Shown one piece after another: positions 4,153 to 64,000 of a stretch of 64,000 bases of DNA. The stretch comes from a bacterium. Lineage in GTDB: Bacteria > Calditrichota > Calditrichia > RBG-13-44-9 > J042. The notes beneath the pieces are model-generated. The model was not told where the DNA came from. It saw only the letters and a list, made by a program, of their open reading frames with translations, and made no database searches. Position numbers and translations under genes: made by a program. The stretch spans positions 1-64,000 of the forward strand of contig WFTQ01000076.1 in assembly GCA_015485355.1 (NCBI GenBank), in the 5' to 3' direction. Position 1 is the stretch's first letter. Each line of letters starts with the position of its first letter.

Positions 4153-4860
4153 ATGAAGCACAACCGATCTCGTGCCCTGGCGGTGGTGCTGGTTAGTGGA
4201 GGATTGGACAGTTGCGTAACGGCGGCCATCGCGGCCCAGGAGTACGAGCTGGCCATGTTGCACGTCAATTACGGCCAGCGTACCGAAGCCCGGGAGCTAA
4301 AGGCGTTTCAGGATATTTGTGCCTTTTATGGGGTCCCTGCCTCCCGTCGACTGGTGAGCTCAATCGCTCATTTGAAGCAGATCGGGGGGTCTTCTTTAAC
4401 CGACCAACGGATACCGGTTTCCCGGGCTGATCTGCAATCGAAGGAGATCCCCACTTCTTACGTTCCGTTTCGCAATGCGCATTTATTGTCCATCGCTGTA
4501 AGCTGGGGCGAAGTGCTGGGCGCCCGCGCCATTTTCATCGGTGCGGTAGAAGAGGATTCATCCGGATATCCGGATTGCCGATTGTCCTTTTTCCAGGCCT
4601 TTAATCGCGTCATTCAACTGGGCACCCGTCCCGATACCCGATTAACCATCCAGGCACCCCTTATTCACCTGAAAAAGTTTGAAATTGTTCAAAAGGGAGT
4701 GGAATTGAAAGCCCCTTTGCATCTGACCTGGTCCTGTTACCAACGGGAAGACATCGCCTGTGGAATATGCGACAGTTGTGCGCTGCGGTTACGGGCCTTC
4801 CAGAAACTGGGACTGGAAGATCCCATCCCCTATCGGGAAAGACCCCGGTATTCCTATTGA
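4153..4860 (+). CDS. queC: 7-cyano-7-deazaguanine synthase QueC
   Basis: ATP-dependent conversion of 7-carboxy-7-deazaguanine to preQ0. The PP-loop motif SGGLDS is at residues 15-20 and the zinc site is formed by Cys195, Cys203, Cys206 and Cys209 (C-X7-CGICDSC). [13 protein letters not shown] and [13 protein letters not shown] are typical of the family. The start follows GAAGGGG by a few bases. It is the last gene of the que run and overlaps tail to tail by seven bases with the phosphatase gene on the other strand; no terminator was seen there. Confidence 0.95.
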
Positions 4861-5363
4861 TTCGAAGAAGGATTCACGTATTGGGCCTTTTTAAGCGCCC
4901 GCCTCTTCAATTCCGTCCAGATCCGTTCAATTTCCCGGAGAATTTCTCCAAAGGTCTTTCGATAAGCCTGTAAATTCCTGCCATACGGATCGTCGATGGA
5001 CAAGGAACGGTGGTTCTCTTTGGCGGCAAATTCTCTCAGGGTAAATATCTTATTACGAAAATGGGGATATATGGTCAACAAGTCCAATTTATGCTGTTCG
5101 GCCAGGCACAAAATAATATCCGCCTTTTTCACCATGGCGTGGTCAATGGGTCTCGCTCGATGAGCGGAGACCTCCAGACCATGCTCCAGGCACACCCGAC
5201 GGGTATTCTCCGAAACGGGATTGCCTTCCATGGCCCAGGTGCCGGCCGACTCCACACTCATCACATTTTCCAGGCGCTCTCTATCGATCAATTGTCGCAA
5301 CAGGGCCTCGGCCATGGGAGTGCGACAGATATTCCCGGTGCATACCAACAACACTCTATACAT
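4854..5363 (-). CDS. Low-molecular-weight protein tyrosine phosphatase
   Basis: A 169-residue LMW-PTP of the YwlE/Wzb type. The P-loop is [13 protein letters not shown] with nucleophile Cys8 and Arg14, and the general-acid loop is IDDPYGR near residue 125. I take the ATG at 5363 because AAGGGG lies about 11 bases upstream; an in-frame TTG at 5384 is less likely. It is the last gene of the minus-strand group with the Sua5/YrdC gene. That Sua5-LMWPTP neighbourhood recurs in bacteria (ywlC-ywlE in Bacillus). It could dephosphorylate arginine or tyrosine residues, and the exopolysaccharide tyrosine kinase at 62617 is one conceivable target (inference). Confidence 0.92.
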
Positions 5364-5421
5364 AGATCGTTTGACCCCTTCCAATTTTGGTGTAAGACAC
5401 TGCTATATTCGACCGGCTAAT

Positions 5422-6072: not shown

Positions 6073-7166
6073 GGCTGCTCCCTATGGGATGGAATGACAC
6101 CGAGTTCTTTTAATTTGGTTAAGACGGACATGAAAACGCGTTCAGGTTTTAATTCAAGCATACACTCGTGAGTACCGACGGGACAACGATGCCCACCGTG
6201 AATACCACAGGGTCGACAATCCAGTTCCTTTCGCTCTATCACCTGATCGTGTGGCCCCCAGGGGTAAAACCCGAAAGCCGGCACCGTTGGACCGAAAATA
6301 GCAACGACCGGGATGCGTACGGCCACCCCCAGGTGAAGGGGGGCGCTATCATTGGTAACCAGCATTTTCGATTGTTGGATCAGCAATGCGGATTGCCGCA
6401 GGCTCATTTGTCCCACCGCATTTCGGACGGCCGGGCCCGCCCGGTGTTGAATCCGATCGGCAAGGTCTTGATCCAGGGGACCTCCGACCAGAATACTGAC
6501 GATCCCATGCGCGTAAAGCCGTTGGGCCAGTGCGCTGTAATAGGCTGCAGGCCATCGCTTGGTGGCCCACACCGATCCAGGAGCCAGGGTCACAAACGGC
6601 TGCTCCCCCCCAATCCCCTGTCTGCGGAGCCAGTCGGAGACCGTTGCATGATCCCGCGGGGTAAAAAACAGTTCCGGATAAGGTTTTCCCTCGGGTGCCC
6701 CTCCCAGGGGATTCAGGAGCTGCAGGTTGCGTTCGACCTCGTGCATTCCTTTATGGTATGGCACTAAGTGGGAAAATAAATATTTTCCAGCGCTATTGTG
6801 GAAACCGATTCGAATTCGTATCCCCGCGGCGGTGACCAGTAGAGCGCTCCGCAACGATCGGTGAGGAACGAAGGCAAGATCATATTTCCCATGACGCAAA
6901 CGCCGGATCAACCGGATCAGGGGAACGATTCCCTTCTCCTTTCCGTGTTTATCGTACAACCACAACTGCTGGATATAGGGCAGAGTCTCTGCTATATTTT
7001 TGGAGGCGGGGATGGTCAGAAAGTCCAGCCGGGCATGGGGAAAGCGCTCCCGAATAGCTTTTATTAATGGAAGGGTCAAAATGACATCCCCCAAGAACGC
7101 CGTTTGAACGACCAGAATGGCGGTGGGGACGTAAGGGTCGGGAAAACGAATCTGTGTTTTACGCAT
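6069..7166 (-). CDS. ADP-heptose:LPS heptosyltransferase family protein (GT9)
   Basis: A 365-residue glycosyltransferase family 9 protein, probably adding heptose to lipopolysaccharide core at the inner face of the inner membrane. The N-terminal Rossmann domain starts ILVVQTAFLGDVILTLP (acceptor side). The C-terminal domain has LAPGSVWATKRWP and TNDSAPLHLGVAVRIPVVAIFGPT, the ADP-sugar binding region of WaaF/WaaC proteins. A Cys-rich segment near residue 320 (CRPCGIHGGHRCPVGTHEC) is common in WaaF-like proteins. It overlaps the response regulator upstream by eight bases and tsaC downstream by four, so the three are co-translated. Whether the sugar is heptose cannot be shown here. Confidence 0.88.
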   Translation of the reverse strand: MRKTQIRFPDPYVPTAILVVQTAFLGDVILTLPLIKAIRERFPHARLDFLTIPASKNIAETLPYIQQLWLYDKHGKEKGIVPLIRLIRRLRHGKYDLAFVPHRSLRSALLVTAAGIRIRIGFHNSAGKYLFSHLVPYHKGMHEVERNLQLLNPLGGAPEGKPYPELFFTPRDHATVSDWLRRQGIGGEQPFVTLAPGSVWATKRWPAAYYSALAQRLYAHGIVSILVGGPLDQDLADRIQHRAGPAVRNAVGQMSLRQSALLIQQSKMLVTNDSAPLHLGVAVRIPVVAIFGPTVPAFGFYPWGPHDQVIERKELDCRPCGIHGGHRCPVGTHECMLELKPERVFMSVLTKLKELGVIPSHREQP

Positions 7167-7548
7167 GCTGAATCAAGCGGTCAATGGTTCGAACCAATTC
7201 CGTTAAGTCGAACGGTTTGATCAGATACGCCGATACCCCCAGACGTTCCAAACGATTTCTCTGGGCCTGGTCTTCTGAGCCCGTTGTGATAATGATGGGA
7301 ATCTCCGGCAGGACTTTTAAAAATTCCATCGCCACCTCCTCCCCGTCTTTGTCGGGTAGGGACAGGTCCAGGATAACGACCGCTATTTCGAAGATATACC
7401 GGGAGAACACCTCGATTGCCTGAGCGGCTGTGACTGCGGTCAAAACCTGAAAGCCGCTACTCGACAACAGCTTGTGGATCATCCACATGAGGTCGAAGTC
7501 GTCTTCGACGATGAGAATAATGTTTTGATTATCTTCTTGTTTCTTCAT
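7159..7548 (-). CDS. Single-domain response regulator (CheY-like receiver)
   Basis: A 129-residue stand-alone receiver domain. The acidic pocket is Asp16/Asp17, the phosphorylation site Asp61 (ILDLSLPDKDG), the switch Thr88 or Thr89 (IITTGSE), and the conserved Lys111 precedes Pro112 (LIKPFD). There is no output domain, so it must act by protein contact or as a phosphorelay step. No histidine kinase is encoded nearby. Its end overlaps the start of the heptosyltransferase gene by eight bases, which ties it to envelope genes and not to a chemotaxis locus. Confidence 0.93.
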   Translation of the reverse strand: MKKQEDNQNIILIVEDDFDLMWMIHKLLSSSGFQVLTAVTAAQAIEVFSRYIFEIAVVILDLSLPDKDGEEVAMEFLKVLPEIPIIITTGSEDQAQRNRLERLGVSAYLIKPFDLTELVRTIDRLIQHA

Positions 7549-7720: not shown

Positions 7721-7933
7721 ATGAAAAGTTTATTAGAAATCCGCAAGGCGTACGAAGAAAATTATCGCCAGATGCTGGAAGTCATCCGTCAAATGGGTGG
7801 CGACGATAAGATTAAATTGCATCGCAAACGCAATACCTCCCTTTATCGAAAACTCCGCCAGCTTCAAAAACGGGAACACTATCTGGACCAACTGGAAAAC
7901 CGATTGTTTATGGAAAAACAGTACCTGCATTGA
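7721..7933 (+). CDS. Small hypothetical basic coiled-coil protein
   Basis: A 70-residue protein that I do not recognise. It is about a third charged, with many Lys, Arg and Glu and a heptad-like spacing of Leu (LYRKLRQLQKREHYLDQLENRL), so a helical or coiled-coil protein is likely. Support for a real gene is a good ribosome site (GGGGGAAGGG) just before the ATG and a strong rho-independent terminator 50 bases after the stop. It lies alone on the plus strand between two minus-strand operons. Confidence 0.6.
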   Translation: MKSLLEIRKAYEENYRQMLEVIRQMGGDDKIKLHRKRNTSLYRKLRQLQKREHYLDQLENRLFMEKQYLH

Positions 7934-8086: not shown

Positions 8087-8518
8087 TTAAGCGACCTTTT
8101 GTTCGGTGGCCACCAGGTCTTTCACCTTTTGTTCAATAGCATCACAGAGCTTTTCGATCGCTCTCTTCATCTCTTCCTCAGAACCTTCTTGCAAGGTGGG
8201 ATCCTCAAACTCCCAGCTGATGACCTCGTGGGGATAGGGAATTCCGGGAAGTTTTTCCTTTAGCGATGGATGTAGCAATATGATCAAATCCAATGGCTGC
8301 CGCTCCACCACCTCATACCGCTTGGAAAAATAATACGTCATCCGGAAACCACGGGATTGTAAAACTTCCTGCACTAAGTAATGGACCCGATCCGATTCCA
8401 GACCGAAGCTGAAACATTCGAAGGTCTCCTGGCCCAATCGTTTAGCATAAGCCTCGGCGATAATGCTCCGACAGGCGTTCCGCTGGGACACAAATGCCAC
8501 CATTTTCTTACGTGCCAT
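8087..8518 (-). CDS. ArsC/LMW-PTP-fold protein with catalytic Cys replaced by Ser
   Basis: A 143-residue protein of the thioredoxin-type arsenate reductase/LMW-PTP fold. The P-loop reads FVSQRNACRSIIAEAY, where relatives have FVCxxNxCRSQMAEA: the nucleophilic cysteine is Ser11 (codon TCC), while Cys16, Arg17 and Ser18 remain. The WEFEDPT motif near residue 108 matches the ArsC acid-loop region, but the resolving cysteines of the arsenate reductase redox relay are absent. The ATG at 8518 follows GGAGGATC. A normal reductase or phosphatase reaction is therefore unlikely; it may bind oxyanions or phosphorylated partners (inference). It follows the FemAB/GNAT gene on the same strand. Confidence 0.85.
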   Translation of the reverse strand: MARKKMVAFVSQRNACRSIIAEAYAKRLGQETFECFSFGLESDRVHYLVQEVLQSRGFRMTYYFSKRYEVVERQPLDLIILLHPSLKEKLPGIPYPHEVISWEFEDPTLQEGSEEEMKRAIEKLCDAIEQKVKDLVATEQKVA

Positions 8519-8610
8519 TCTTGATCCTCCGTACTCATCATTCCGTTTCAAAACCCGCTGAAGTGTAAAAAACCCGCTTTTGATTTGCAAGCAGAAAATA
8601 TCCCGGCCCT

Positions 8611-9636
8611 TCAGGAGCGGCGTCTTTTCCACCGATTCCACTCGTCGCGCCAATTCAGGGCCCATCGGATCGGGCGGTTCCGGGTCCACAGGCAACGGAA
8701 ATACGGTACCAACCGGGCCCCCAACCGCAATTTGAATCTGGCAATATGCGGGATCATGGCCCCCCCCAGATCGAATTGCTGTTGTCCCCTACCCTGTAAA
8801 AGGCTTGCGGTTTCTGCAATCAACCGCAGCGATGCCAGATTCCCTTCCGTTCCGGGACGCCGGCCTAAAAACAGACCATAGCCCGTATGGGCATCCCACA
8901 CCACCAGAGTGGCTGCCAGGATTGCCCCGGCTGGATTTTGAACAGCAAACACATCCCCCACTCCCGCTCGCTTTATAAATCGGGCAAATGCCGTCAATCG
9001 GGACATTTCCACCGGCGGCACGAGAGCATCCCGGGCATAGTTTTCTTCAACTAGTTCGTAGAGCGATGGCCCATCGTCCGTGCTTGAGAATTGCCAATCG
9101 GTGCGCTCCAAAGAACGCCGCCACAATCGATGGCTTTCGGGATTCATGGTGTTTACGAAATATCGCTCGGGAGTCAACGACAGTATCGCACTATATTGAG
9201 GTTCCACCTGCCAGCCGCGCCAGTAAAAAGGGCGAACGTCCTGCAAAAACGGATGAGTGGAAAAACTGGCGATGGGATAAGCTCTCTCCAAGTACTGCAG
9301 GAGGGGAAAAGCAACCTCGTGAAACGCTTCGATCTCCCGGTAAGGGCGTTCCGTGGGAATGGCCAGTATGCGTACGGGATTGTACCACACATAAAAGGGA
9401 GTGATTGCAAGGGTAAGCCCCACCCGGTGCCGTTCCCAAATGACCATACCCCCGACGGGGGTGTTCCCCTTGAACAGCACAAGGGGTCTGGGATGCAGAG
9501 AAAATACTTCCTGAACAATGCTCCAGAATTCCGGTTGGTGAAACAGCACCAGCGGACGAGTGTGAGAAAGCAGTCGGCGCCAGACGTCCATTTCTTCCGG
9601 AGGGAGCGGCTGAACATTATAGTTCGTTTTCGACAT
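8611..9636 (-). CDS. GNAT/FemAB-like acyltransferase
   Basis: A 341-residue protein resembling the double-GNAT FemAB-like family (BioF2-type acetyltransferase domain). Typical segments are VGGMVIWERHRVG in the first half, then the second GNAT domain with AGAILAATLVVWD, YGLFLGRRPG and the closing FDLGGAMIPHIARFKLRLGARLVPYF. Such proteins transfer aminoacyl or acyl groups to cell-wall or polysaccharide acceptors; the substrate here is unknown. It lies downstream of argF with a 102-base gap that contains a possible promoter (TTGATG-N17-TAAGTT). Confidence 0.8.
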   Translation of the reverse strand: MSKTNYNVQPLPPEEMDVWRRLLSHTRPLVLFHQPEFWSIVQEVFSLHPRPLVLFKGNTPVGGMVIWERHRVGLTLAITPFYVWYNPVRILAIPTERPYREIEAFHEVAFPLLQYLERAYPIASFSTHPFLQDVRPFYWRGWQVEPQYSAILSLTPERYFVNTMNPESHRLWRRSLERTDWQFSSTDDGPSLYELVEENYARDALVPPVEMSRLTAFARFIKRAGVGDVFAVQNPAGAILAATLVVWDAHTGYGLFLGRRPGTEGNLASLRLIAETASLLQGRGQQQFDLGGAMIPHIARFKLRLGARLVPYFRCLWTRNRPIRWALNWRDEWNRWKRRRS

Positions 9637-9738: not shown

Positions 9739-10656
9739 TCATGCTTTGCCGGCCAGCTTGACCATAATGGCCTTTTGCACATGCAACCGATTTTCCGCCT
9801 CATCGAACACGATGGAGTGTGGTCCATCCAGCACGTCGTCTGTAATCTCTTCTCCCCTGTGTGCCGGCAAGCAGTGCATGACCAGAACATCGTCCTTGGC
9901 GTGGGTCAACAGTTCAGCGTTGACCTGATAGGGTTTAAACACCTGCCGCCGCAATTCGGCTTCGTTTTCCTTCCCCATACTGGCCCAAACATCCGTATAA
10001 ACCACATCGGCATTTTTGACCGCCTCCACGGGATCGGAAATGAGCTGGATCGTACTGCACCCGGCTTCCCGGGCGCGGTTCAGCGTCGCGGCATCGGGTT
10101 GGTATGCTCGTGGAGTACAGATGACCAGATGTATGGGCACCCGGTAGGCGAAGTTGATCCAGGAATGGGCCACATTATTGCCATCGCCGATATACACAAT
10201 TTTTAATCCGTCCAGCGTCCCCCGATGTTCCAGGATCGTAAAGGCATCGGCCATGATTTGACAGGGATGATTGTAATCGGTCAGCCCGTTGATGACCGGA
10301 ACACCGGCATATCGGGCCAACTCTTCCATGTCGGCATGGTCAAACAGGCGAGCCATGATCATATCGTTGTAACGGGAGATCACCCGGGCGATATCTTTCA
10401 CCGCCTCGCGTTGCCCCAGGCCGATGTCCTGAGGAGACAAATAAAGGGCATGGCCTCCCAGCTGGAACATTCCCGTTTCGAACGAAATACGGGTGCGGGC
10501 ACTGGGCTTGGCAAAGATCATGGCCAAGGTGTACCCTTTCAGCAAAGGATGCCATTCCCCCTTCCGGGTTTTTTCTTTCAACTCCCGAGTAAGGGCAAAA
10601 ATATCAAAGATTTCCTCCCGGCTCAAATCGGCAATCGATATAAAATCCTTTTTCAC
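9739..10656 (-). CDS. argF: Ornithine carbamoyltransferase
   Basis: Makes citrulline from ornithine and carbamoyl phosphate in arginine synthesis. The 305-residue protein has the carbamoyl-phosphate motif KPSARTR (SARTR at residues 52-56), DYNHPCQ in the middle, TDVWASMG, and the ornithine-binding HCLPAHRG near the C terminus. These are the OTC forms and not those of the N-acetyl- or N-succinyl-ornithine enzymes of Bacteroidetes. No other arginine gene is nearby. It starts 33 bases after hslU on the same strand. Confidence 0.95.
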   Translation of the reverse strand: MKKDFISIADLSREEIFDIFALTRELKEKTRKGEWHPLLKGYTLAMIFAKPSARTRISFETGMFQLGGHALYLSPQDIGLGQREAVKDIARVISRYNDMIMARLFDHADMEELARYAGVPVINGLTDYNHPCQIMADAFTILEHRGTLDGLKIVYIGDGNNVAHSWINFAYRVPIHLVICTPRAYQPDAATLNRAREAGCSTIQLISDPVEAVKNADVVYTDVWASMGKENEAELRRQVFKPYQVNAELLTHAKDDVLVMHCLPAHRGEEITDDVLDGPHSIVFDEAENRLHVQKAIMVKLAGKA

Positions 10657-10689: not shown

Positions 10690-12066
10690 CTAAAGAATGA
10701 ATTTCCGCAAATCCTCGTCTTCCAGGATATCCTTCAACCGTTCTTTGACGAACTCTCCCGTAATGACAATCGTTTTTTCCTTCATTTCCGGAGCTTCGAA
10801 TAGGAAGTCTTCCAGCAGGGTGGTCATGATAGTGTGCAGGCGTCGCGCACCAATGTTTTCCGCCTTGGAATTGACAAAACTGGCCGTTTCGGCTATCACC
10901 TGAACGGCGTCTTCGGTAAATTCCAGTTCGACCCCCTCGGTGGCCAAGAGGGCCTTATACTGTTTCGTTAGGGCATTCTCGGGTTCGGTAAGAATGCGGA
11001 TGAAATCTTCTGTGGTGAGGCTGTCCAGTTCCACGCGAATAGGGAATCGTCCCTGGAGCTCTGGAATCAGGTCCGAGGGTTTGGAAATATGGAAGGCCCC
11101 GGAGGCGATAAACAGGATGTGATCCGTTCGGACCATTCCGTATTTCGTTACCACAGTGGTGCCTTCGACCACGGGCAGTAAATCCCGTTGGACACCTTCC
11201 CGGGAAACGTCCGGCCCATGCTTGGAGCCGGAACCGGCGATCTTGTCGATTTCATCCAGAAACACAATACCTGAATTTTCCACCCGCTGAATGGCTTCCC
11301 GGATGACTTCTTCCATATCGATGAGTTTCTGTGCCTCCTGCTGGGTTAGAATAGTCAGAGCCTCGGGAACTTTTACTTTACGCTTTTTAATCTTCTTGGG
11401 CATAAGATTACCGAACAGTTCCTGAATGTTGATCCCCATTTCCTCGATACCGACCGGTGAAAAAATCTGCATCATGGGCATGGTTTCGGAAGGCATATCG
11501 ATCTCCACCACCCGATCATCCAGTTCCCCGTTCAAGAGTTTTTGGCGGAATTTTTCCCGGGTACGTTGATGTTTGGCTTCGGGACTATCGGTGGTTTCTG
11601 TTGCTTCGAGGGAAAATCCCGGTTGAGAGGGGAAGTTCGGCGTGGGGATCAGGATATCCAGTAAACGTTCGACGGCCTGTTCCTGCGCCCGGGGCTCCAC
11701 GGCCTTTTTCTTTTCTTCTCGTACCATGTTCATGGCAATATCCACCAGGTCCCGGATAATGCTTTCCACATCTCTCCCCACATATCCCACTTCGGTAAAT
11801 TTGGTTGCTTCGACTTTGATAAAGGGAGCACGTGCCAATTTGGCCAGGCGACGGGATATTTCCGTCTTACCGACCCCGGTGGGCCCAATTAAAATAATGT
11901 TGTTGGGCAGGATTTCTTCTCGCAAATGGCCTTCCACTTGCTGCCGTCGCCAACGATTTCGCAGGGCAATGGCCACAGAGCGCTTGGCTTTATCTTGCCC
12001 GATGATGTATTTATCCAGTTCCTGAACGATTTCCCTGGGGGTTAATTCCCGGGCATTCGGTTTCAT
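10690..12066 (-). CDS. hslU: ATP-dependent protease ATPase subunit HslU
   Basis: The AAA+ unfoldase of the HslUV (ClpQY) protease. Residues 61-68 are the Walker A motif GPTGVGKT and [12 protein letters not shown] near residue 265 is Walker B; the I-domain lies between, with an acidic region around residues 160-230. The C terminus ends LRKFIL, the hydrophobic tail that docks into HslV. At 458 residues the size is normal. It follows hslV with a 21-base gap carrying a GGGAGG ribosome site. Confidence 0.97.
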
Positions 12067-12087
12067 TGTTCCTCCCGTCCTTTATTC

Positions 12088-12633
12088 TTAAAGCGTTTCC
12101 ACCAAAATATTGCGATTCGTATAGATGCAGATATCGGCGGCGATTTCCAGAGACTTTTTCACGATCTCCGCCGCACTCAGGTCCGGCATCTGTTTGAATG
12201 CCCGCGCGGCCGCCAGTGCAAACGGCCCGCCCGAACCGATCGCCAGGATCTGGTCGTCCGGTTCCACCACGTCCCCGGTTCCACTGACTATTAAGGCGGT
12301 GCGTCCATCCAGAACGGCCAGCATGGCCTCCAGACGACGTAAAAATTTATCGGTACGCCAATCCTTCGCCAGCTCTACCGCCGACTTGGTCAGGTTCCCG
12401 TTATAGCGTTCCAATTTTTCCTCCAATCGTTCAAACAGCGTAAACGCATCCGCCGCGGCACCCGCAAAACCCGCCAGAATTTGATCATGGTACAACCGCC
12501 GAATCTTGCGGCTGTTATGCTTCAAGACCGTGTTTCCAAAAGTAACCTGCCCATCTCCTCCAAGAGCCGCCTCTCCCTTGTGCAGAACTCCCAGAATCGT
12601 CGTGCCATGTATTTCCGGATAATTGAAAGCCAT
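12088..12633 (-). CDS. hslV: ATP-dependent protease catalytic subunit HslV, with propeptide
   Basis: The threonine peptidase of HslUV. The mature N terminus is expected at Thr11 in HGTTILGV, followed by [24 protein letters not shown], so the protein has a ten-residue propeptide where many HslV proteins have only Met. I chose the ATG at 12633 because GGAG lies 8 bases upstream; the ATG at 12645 has no ribosome site. A probable sigma-70 promoter lies at 12662-12689. It is followed by hslU in the usual order. Confidence 0.95.
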
Positions 12634-13055
12634 GATGCGCTCCATTTTTCATTAACCAAAAATTTAACCACTTTATGAAGCGATAACAATGGATTTACAA
12701 AAGAGCCCTGCCCCACCAGGTCCACTGGGCTGCCTGCCCCACCTCCCCTATCCGGTTCAAAACGGTTGTGCTCCCTGTTGCAACTCCAGAGTATGTGGCC
12801 GGGCAACTCTAATGGAATGGCCAATGGTGGTGAAACCGATACAGCCTGCCGCCCGCCGCGGAAAAAGAGAAAAACAGGAGGTTGCAGAAATGTCTCCCCT
12901 GGACGGAAACGATTTCGGATGGTCCGACGTCACCATCGGGCAAATCAACGAGAACGGGAGGAGATGCTGGGAGGAGCTCCAGCGGTGGGGCGCAGAGCTC
13001 GTTTTCCAACTATTCCAAAGACGGGGGTCTGGAAATGTCGGGTCGTGGGGCGGGT
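12634..13055. other. Non-coding gap between rpoN and hslV
   Basis: Some 420 bases without a convincing gene. Open frames on both strands are short, Pro/Gly/Arg-rich and have no ribosome site. On the minus strand GGTGGGGCAGG occurs twice, about 23 bases apart, near 12706-12745, and CCAG-GTCCA-CTGG there can form a small hairpin. I looked for tRNA, tmRNA, SRP, RNase P and 6S features and did not find them. The hslV promoter candidate lies at the left end. Confidence 0.5.
12662..12689 (-). promoter_or_regulatory. Probable sigma-70 promoter of hslVU
   Basis: On the minus strand TTGTTA (12689-12684) and TTAAAT (12667-12662) are 16 bases apart and 29 bases upstream of the hslV ATG. The -35 box matches 4 of 6 and the -10 box is weak, so this is only a candidate. 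Confidence 0.4.
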
Positions 13056-62616: not shown

Positions 62617-64000
62617 TTAAAAAATCTTCAAACGATTGCGTCGCTTTAAATCGGCCCCGTAATAGTTGTAATAGTGGTAATAGTAATAATAGTAATAGGA
62701 ACCGTACGTTTTTTCGATCTGTACACTGTTCAACAAGCACCCCAGGATGTTGGCCTTCACATTGTCCAGAAGGTGTTTGGTGCGCCGAATGGCATCCCGC
62801 TGGGTCTGGTGGGCCTTGATGACCAGCACCAGTCCATCCACAAAAGCGCTCAGTACCGCCGCATCGGTGACCGCAATGACCGGCGGACTATCGAATAAAA
62901 TCATGTCGAAGTTCTCTCTGGCCGTCTGGATAAATTCCCGCATTCCATCGGAAGCCAGAATCTCCGATGGATTCGGAGGAATGGGTCCCGAGGTCACCAC
63001 AAAAAGATTGTCCACGATGGTGGGCTTGACGACGTCGTCGAAACCGTTTTTGCCCAATAAATAATTGGTGATGCCTTTGTCTTTTTTCAGACTGAAAATG
63101 GAATGGATTACCGGACGGCGCAGATCGGTGTCCACCAAAAGGGTACGGCTACCCATTTGCGCCATGGTAATCGCCAGGTTGGAAACGGTGGTCGATTTGC
63201 CCTCCTTAGGTGCAGAGCTGGTCACCAGTACGGTACGGGCTTTACTTTCGGCCCCGATATTTTTGAATTGCAAGTTGGTCCTCAATGTTCGGTAGGCCTC
63301 AGAAATTGGTGATTTGGGGTCAAAATGAGTGACCAGGCGCGTTTCGATTAATCGTCCCTCTTCGTATTCAAAGTTCGAATCCCCGTTCTTAGAGAAAATC
63401 TTCTTACTGATTTCATTGGTGGAAATTTCGGGAATAATGGCCAATATGGGAAACCCCATGCGTTCCAGTTCGTCGGGATTTTTGATGGAGTTATCGAAAT
63501 ACTCGATCATGAACGTGAGGCCGATACCCAGGCCCAGGCCGATCAGAGCCCCCAGCAGAAGATTCAACTTTTTCTTGGGTTTGATGGGGAACAAGGGCTC
63601 GATGGCCATATCCACAATCCGAATATTCTCCCTCTGCCCGGCCTCGGAGATTTTTGTTTCCTCCAGTTTTTCGGTCATCAGAATGTAGGTGTTCTGATCG
63701 ACTTCCAGCTGCCGCTGCAATCGGGCCAGCTCCAGGGCCTGTCCCGGCAAGAGGGCCAAGCGTTGCTCGTACTCATTCACCAGATCCCGCAACGCCTCTA
63801 TCTTCGCCCGATACCCTTTGATTTGCGTTTCCAGTTCCAGAATAGAACTCACCAGATTCTGAGCAATCATCAGGGGATCGGAAATCATGCTGGTATTGGC
63901 GATGCGAAGCGCTTCTTCCCTTAATCGCTCCCGGATGGCCTTGATTTGATTGTTCATGCTCCGCAATTTGACCTGGTACACCTGCGGGTCCACCTTTTCC
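62617..64000 (-). CDS. Polysaccharide biosynthesis tyrosine autokinase (Wzc-like), C-terminal part
   Basis: The 3' 460 codons of a BY-kinase/polysaccharide co-polymerase; the gene begins beyond the right edge (the GTG at 63993 is an internal Val). A coiled-coil periplasmic part (RDLVNEYEQRLALLPGQALELARLQRQLEVDQNTY) leads to GNVR-type SEAGQRENIRIVDMAIEP, a transmembrane helix (LNLLLGALIGLGLGIGLTFM) and the kinase: Walker A SSAPKEGKSTT, Walker A' LLVDTDLRRP, Walker B ILFDSPP. The tail is a Tyr cluster, SYYYYYYYHYYNYYG, the autophosphorylation site of such kinases, then a basic end. It heads the operon with ugd and the WbpA/WecC-type gene. Confidence 0.94.
   Translation of the reverse strand, partial: EKVDPQVYQVKLRSMNNQIKAIRERLREEALRIANTSMISDPLMIAQNLVSSILELETQIKGYRAKIEALRDLVNEYEQRLALLPGQALELARLQRQLEVDQNTYILMTEKLEETKISEAGQRENIRIVDMAIEPLFPIKPKKKLNLLLGALIGLGLGIGLTFMIEYFDNSIKNPDELERMGFPILAIIPEISTNEISKKIFSKNGDSNFEYEEGRLIETRLVTHFDPKSPISEAYRTLRTNLQFKNIGAESKARTVLVTSSAPKEGKSTTVSNLAITMAQMGSRTLLVDTDLRRPVIHSIFSLKKDKGITNYLLGKNGFDDVVKPTIVDNLFVVTSGPIPPNPSEILASDGMREFIQTARENFDMILFDSPPVIAVTDAAVLSAFVDGLVLVIKAHQTQRDAIRRTKHLLDNVKANILGCLLNSVQIEKTYGSYYYYYYYHYYNYYGADLKRRNRLKIF

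Follow-up and report, generated by a model that had tools for sequence, protein, structure and literature searches.

The window analysed here, a stretch of 64,000 nucleotides from a genome of the Calditrichota, contains a gene at 8087-8518 whose product resembles arsenate reductase (ArsC) and carries a serine where the catalytic cysteine belongs. The question raised by this locus is whether such a protein is a remnant, an enzyme with altered chemistry or a protein that works by binding. The reading that we prefer, and to which we give an even chance, is that this Ser-type protein is a bacterial STYX-type pseudophosphatase, which holds a phosphoryl group or another oxyanion without turnover and works by binding. 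That the Cys-based chemistry was lost, and that this loss is fixed in the clade, we take to be nearly certain.

The gene, its domain and its predicted fold

The features of the gene, together with an active-type relative encoded in the same window, are the following.

8087-8518, minus strand: Ser-type gene of 143 aa, a putative pseudo-enzyme with the ArsC fold (translation, profile match and model)
8465-8488, minus strand: P-loop S11-Q-R-N14-A-C16-R17-S18, with the Ser11 codon TCC at 8486-8488
8201-8203, minus strand: Asp106 of the FEDP loop, which occupies the general-acid position and is retained in the window protein
8526-8530, minus strand: GGAGG, resembling a ribosome-binding site, ahead of the ATG at 8516-8518
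4854-5384, minus strand: canonical low-molecular-weight phosphatase (LMW-PTP) paralogue with the P-loop CTGNICRT, separate from the Ser-type gene

The ATG at 8516-8518, preceded by the GGAGG, is the likely start of the gene, and it was preferred over the TTG at 8695, which only begins the longest mechanical reading frame. The window protein matched the LMWPc profile PF01451 with 50.9 bits (cut-off 23.2), and in a sequence search of solved structures its closest matches were arsenate reductases, in agreement with the ArsC-like character that had been assigned to it in the original prediction. The ArsC equivalog profile of NCBIfam, TIGR02691, gave 61.3 bits, below its cut-off of 174.3. The P-loop region reads FVSQRNACRS, and the counterpart pattern in ArsC is C-x-x-N-x-C-R-S. 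In HMMER alignments to ArsC structures, Ser11 falls in the column of the catalytic Cys, C16 in that of the second Cys and R17 in that of the P-loop Arg, as had been claimed from the TCC codon and the neighbouring residues. His83 and Leu90 stand where B. subtilis ArsC has its two C-terminal redox Cys. Arsenate reduction of the thioredoxin type requires three thiols and the phosphatase reaction requires one (ArsC, LMW-PTP). The window genome encodes three PF01451 members; besides the Ser-type protein these are the LMW-PTP at 4854-5384 and, on contig 90, a canonical ArsC, and the presence of these two elsewhere in the genome was counted in favour of a pseudophosphatase.

The AlphaFold2 model of the window protein (30-row alignment) had a pLDDT of 93.3 and a pTM of 0.88, and arsenate reductases ranked first when it was searched with Foldseek. 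In VIA-align the best match was ArsC2 of Deinococcus indicus (8p6m; Z 21.8, rmsd 1.4, 131 aligned residues), followed by B. subtilis ArsC (1jl3; Z 20.9) and pI258 ArsC (Z 20.7); the glutaredoxin-type ArsC 2myu reached Z 18.4. According to this model, the protein has the LMW-PTP/ArsC fold. With the ArsC proteins (8p6m, 1jl3, 2myu) it shares the full-length fold and the Asn, second Cys, Arg and Ser of the P-loop, and it differs from them by the Ser at the nucleophile, the lack of redox Cys and the low TIGR02691 score. With YwlE and the LMW-PTPs it shares the fold and the PF01451 membership, but it lacks their Cys nucleophile, and the DP loop is missing in part of the clade.

Two further matches bear on rival explanations. 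The YwlE structures 4kk3 and 4kk4 aligned with Z 18.0 and 17.9 (17-20% identity to the YwlE chains), and the PDB title of the latter is "YwlE arginine phosphatase - C7S mutant with phosphorylated active site serine". Going by this title, a Ser at the nucleophile of an LMW phosphatase can, by analogy, still take a phosphoryl group. It is on account of this phosphorylated C7S mutant that a nucleophilic Ser11 stays among the rivals: it would be a phospho-Ser acceptor, in a single turnover or as a phosphocarrier, or belong to a very slow phosphatase. The retention of Asp106 in the window protein fits this explanation, which we consider unlikely in view of the orthologues described below; moreover, no result of the analysis links a phosphodonor to the protein. 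The second match was an assembly chain of the T. brucei mitoribosomal small subunit (7pua_FW; Z 18.6, 142 residues aligned), which shares the fold and is in line with a pure scaffold or assembly factor, in which the P-loop would be kept only for the fold and the action would run through surface contacts. We regard this explanation as rather unlikely, and the residues that bear on it are given below.

The Ser clade and its pocket

Among 60 genomes searched at the protein level, the genome of the window and 59 more, there were ten clear members, that of the window included, with 45-100% identity to the window protein, the next relatives being at about 32%. In the 40 genomes of the class (a search of the phylum covered the same 40), the profile recovered the same ten and no further Ser-type member. 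In a collection of genome contigs a single-protein query found nothing, and an alignment-based query recovered the clade as nine loci, which are the nine members outside the window; the next match was at 1e-14.

Ser11, N14, C16, R17 and S18 are invariant in all ten orthologues. The Ser11 codons are all TCN and use four third bases (TCC, TCT, TCG and TCA). A sequencing error at the TCC codon, raised as an objection to the original prediction, is therefore excluded, and the alignment of homologues for which the prediction had called finds Ser11 conserved throughout the subfamily. The columns of the two redox Cys contain no Cys in any member (column 83, HHHHSHHEHN; column 90, LLLLLLLMLL), so that the absence of the redox relay noted in the window protein extends to the whole clade. 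The marks of a thioredoxin-type ArsC, a CX5R Cys and two further redox Cys, are thus lacking in 10/10. Those of an LMW protein-tyrosine or arginine phosphatase, a Cys nucleophile and a general-acid Asp, are not found together either: with Ser11 in every member, the aligned Asp is present in five, the window protein included, a DP stands one column before it in two, and the other three lack both, which speaks against Ser11 as a nucleophile. Taken together, Ser11 fixed over synonymous changes, the missing redox Cys and the partly lost general acid point to a pseudo-enzyme throughout the lineage, as had been suspected for the window protein.

The features of a STYX-type protein, a CX5R motif with its nucleophile replaced and its Arg kept, both fixed in a clade, are found here: Ser11 and Arg17 occur in 10/10, and the clade is supported with 100/100. 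As the sequence and the model show, the ArsC/LMW-PTP fold and the P-loop are retained, with Ser clade-wide in place of the Cys nucleophile and without the relay of thiols that arsenate reduction requires. In the preferred mechanism, the kept Arg17 and the P-loop amides would still hold a phosphoryl group or another tetrahedral oxyanion and, since the thiolate is absent, the held ligand would not be turned over. The protein would then most likely work by binding: it may read or shield a phosphorylated partner, either a protein or a small molecule, and signal onward by protein contact; we give this role as phosphoryl reader about an even chance.

The P-loop is one of several conserved places. 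Eight of the 136 eight-residue segments of the ten-orthologue alignment, the P-loop among them, hold as many invariant columns, and S37-F38-G39 and F64-S65-K66, which by comparison with ArsC and LMW-PTP structures border the active site, are likewise invariant. Position 12 of the P-loop is acidic (D/E) in 7/10 orthologues, which may weaken anion binding. This counts against the preferred reading and likewise against an arsenate or phosphate sensor, an explanation that would be in keeping with Arg17 and the P-loop retained on an arsenate-reductase scaffold; no arsenic gene was found among the part of the neighbours that was scanned, the canonical ArsC lies on another contig, and we consider a sensor very unlikely. 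A redox switch at Cys16 was also considered and rejected, no Cys other than Cys16 being invariant (Cys8 in 6/10, Cys125 in 8/10, Cys35 in 2/10); therefore, a conserved disulfide is unlikely.

The Ser-type gene was present in 10/16 genomes of one order of the Calditrichota, spread over the families f1, f2 and f3, and the profile search did not find it in the other six, three of which are less than 90% complete. In two of these (G006 and G010), argF and the gene of a 70-aa protein are neighbours with no match to the Ser-type gene between them (the intervals measure about 330 and 95 bases); in the other four (G005, G009 and G011, of one genus, and G013, 62% complete) the profile search found no Ser-type gene, and argF and a GNAT-like gene are present in the stretches covered. 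The gene looks dispensable because of these absences, which weigh against the preferred reading and are also what would be expected of a decaying remnant or an assembly error. Such an origin has a negligible chance, being contradicted by the open frame, Ser11, P-loop and ATG start conserved in all ten genomes. The dN/dS ratio was 0.13-0.20 in the few pairs of the clade for which it was computable (YN00 1/45, NG86 4/45), and three of the four NG86 pairs carry little weight because their dS exceeds 2.5.

The tree was computed from 79 proteins and 135 columns, leaving out L102-L140, duplicates and pieces shorter than 100 aa. In it the Ser clade is monophyletic on a single long stem (100/100) and is placed, with weak support (93/83), beside two proteins of the Bacillota/Izimaplasma type. 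The deep forks are unsure because there are only 135 columns for 79 rows.

The contig scan kept the best 80 of 281 relatives, 71 of which lie outside the Ser clade. The nucleophile is Cys in 70 of these and Ser in one; the scan pattern NxCRSIIAE demands C16, R17 and S18, and therefore this set is silent on these residues. The exception, L081:7995-8453, is an alphaproteobacterial ArsC-like protein with the P-loop LSTNNICRS, in which both C-terminal redox Cys are kept. By its sequence it represents a third, separate Cys-to-Ser change.

Gene neighbourhood of the Ser-type gene

The genes around the Ser-type gene in the window, with their occurrence at the ten loci of the clade, are listed below.

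7159-7548, minus strand: single-domain response regulator, downstream in 6/10 (tblastn E <1e-15)
7721-7933, plus strand: convergent gene of a 70-aa small protein, downstream in 9/10 and kept in two genomes without the Ser-type gene
8611-9636, minus strand: GNAT-like gene with a weak match to Acetyltransf_6 (GNAT/FemAB-like) below the cut-off, upstream of the Ser-type gene
9739-10656, minus strand: argF-like gene (ornithine carbamoyltransferase), upstream on the same strand in 10/10
10690-12645, minus strand: hslU and hslV, further upstream in the same block

The genes at 9739-10656 and 10690-12645 are those that we take, by their families, to be argF and hslU/hslV. argF lies directly before the Ser-type gene in six loci, and the GNAT-like gene lies between them in the other four, one of which also holds a polysaccharide-synthesis gene before the Ser-type gene. 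hslU was found on the contig of the Ser-type gene in 8/10, and the other two contigs end inside argF. At one locus (L062) the other strand encodes, close by, a protein of 1237 aa whose receiver domain is related; it is outside the count of six response regulators. Between the window and L065 the identity was 51% for the Ser-type protein, 79% for hslU, 76% for argF and 61% for the 70-aa protein; the Ser-type protein evolves faster than its neighbours, which is a further point against the preferred reading. The neighbourhood was given little weight for function because the flanks persist without the Ser-type gene in G006 and G010: argF and the 70-aa gene remain side by side there, so that synteny does not establish a common pathway. 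A phosphoarginine link was considered, since YwlE has the same fold and hslVU lies upstream, and arginine kinase (PF00217) was searched for; it was found in 0/40 genomes of the class and 0/4 others, but also in none of 14 control genomes, so that these zeros speak neither for its absence nor for or against the link.

The 70-aa protein is charged and is 95.7% identical between the window and L061, the corresponding value for the Ser-type protein being 76%. It matched no family above the cut-off in the family profile scan.

A second lineage with Gly, and known pseudophosphatases

The profile search of the class also detected further ArsC-like proteins in the families f4 to f6. In 17 genomes the residue at the nucleophile is Gly, and each of these genes lies near a gene of an NhaD/CitMHS-type transporter (PF16980 in L156, the one scanned).

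L156:7833-8258 (G017) and 16 further genomes, e.g. L150, L152, L154, L155, L157-L165, L188, L189 and L199: Gly-type loci

In seven Gly-type loci a reading frame of 930-1040 aa lies directly upstream, and the one scanned (L160) encodes a hybrid sensor kinase (domains PAS, HATPase and receiver); several Gly-type genes precede what is presumably a mutL-like gene. The P-loop Arg is kept in 4/17 genomes (G027, G030, G038 and G039), and in the G028 copy the loop is changed further. This suggests that the fold can be kept without the anion site, as the scaffold explanation would have it; the Ser clade, unlike the Gly lineage, has Arg17 invariant in 10/10, which argues against that explanation for the Ser-type protein.

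Two relatives in family f4, in G018 (L151:1966-2385) and G019 (L153:3555-3995), still have Cys at the nucleophile. The same transporter gene adjoins the relative in G019 and is two genes away in G018, and these proteins possibly represent the active ancestral state of the Gly lineage. In the tree, 13 Gly proteins group together (100/100), and the two Cys proteins branch at the base of this clade (100/100 for the 15 combined); the Ser clade lies elsewhere. Therefore, two separate losses of the Cys are most likely in the class. That the Ser and Gly types are orthologous was considered and is supported neither by the tree (135 columns, 79 rows) nor by the neighbours. As a tentative proposal, STYX-like pseudophosphatases may have been invented twice from the ArsC fold in the Calditrichota: the Ser type, beside hslVU-argF, may still read a phosphoryl mark and possibly itself hold a stable phospho-serine, and the Gly type, encoded next to a sensor kinase and an NhaD/CitMHS-type transporter, may descend from a Cys-bearing ancestor, both being readers or scaffolds of phosphorylation.

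To our knowledge, pseudophosphatases are known mainly from eukaryotes. The fold of MK-STYX and STYX differs from the LMW-PTP/ArsC fold: these are eukaryotic proteins of the dual-specificity phosphatase fold with known partners, whereas the Ser-type protein is known from sequence and model. MK-STYX reads IFSTQGISRS and STYX has Gly, and both are described as inactive and as having cellular roles (PMC4257672). The CX5R Cys is thus replaced as in the two Calditrichota types, by Ser in MK-STYX and the Ser type and by Gly in STYX and the Gly type. Restoring the Cys of MK-STYX is reported to give phosphatase activity (PMC4257672). MK-STYX is also reported to affect stress granules independently of partner phosphorylation at one tested site (PMC4257672), because of which a retained pocket need not mean phospho-reading. 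Kinetoplastid ArsC homologues are described with Gly for the catalytic Cys, both landmark Cys lost and the Arg kept (PMC2175518), which is again consistent with a scaffold. They resemble the Ser-type protein in the ArsC scaffold, the loss of nucleophile and landmark Cys and the kept Arg, and differ from it by the Gly and two long insertions. The mitoribosomal chain FW may be such a kinetoplastid ArsC-like protein.

Among the literature matches listed (titles and beginnings of abstracts, with few subscription journals), no report was found of a bacterial pseudophosphatase on the LMW-PTP/ArsC scaffold, nor of Ser- or Gly-type proteins in those on ArsC pseudoenzymes, Calditrichota and arsenate reductase, Caldithrix abyssi and arsenate, YwlE C7S, HslUV adaptors and mitoribosomal ArsC. 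Two independent losses of Cys in one bacterial class, with the anion site kept in one lineage and eroding in the other, form a ready series that, with the Cys-bearing relatives basal to one lineage, can serve for studying the change from enzyme to binder. They also advise caution against annotating Ser- and Gly-type genes as arsenate reductase.

As a separate observation on the window, which also holds the LMW-PTP at 4854-5384, the product of 62617-63993, which we take to be Wzc-like, is a protein of the BY-kinase or chain-length type with the tyrosine-rich end YYYYYYYHYYNYYG.
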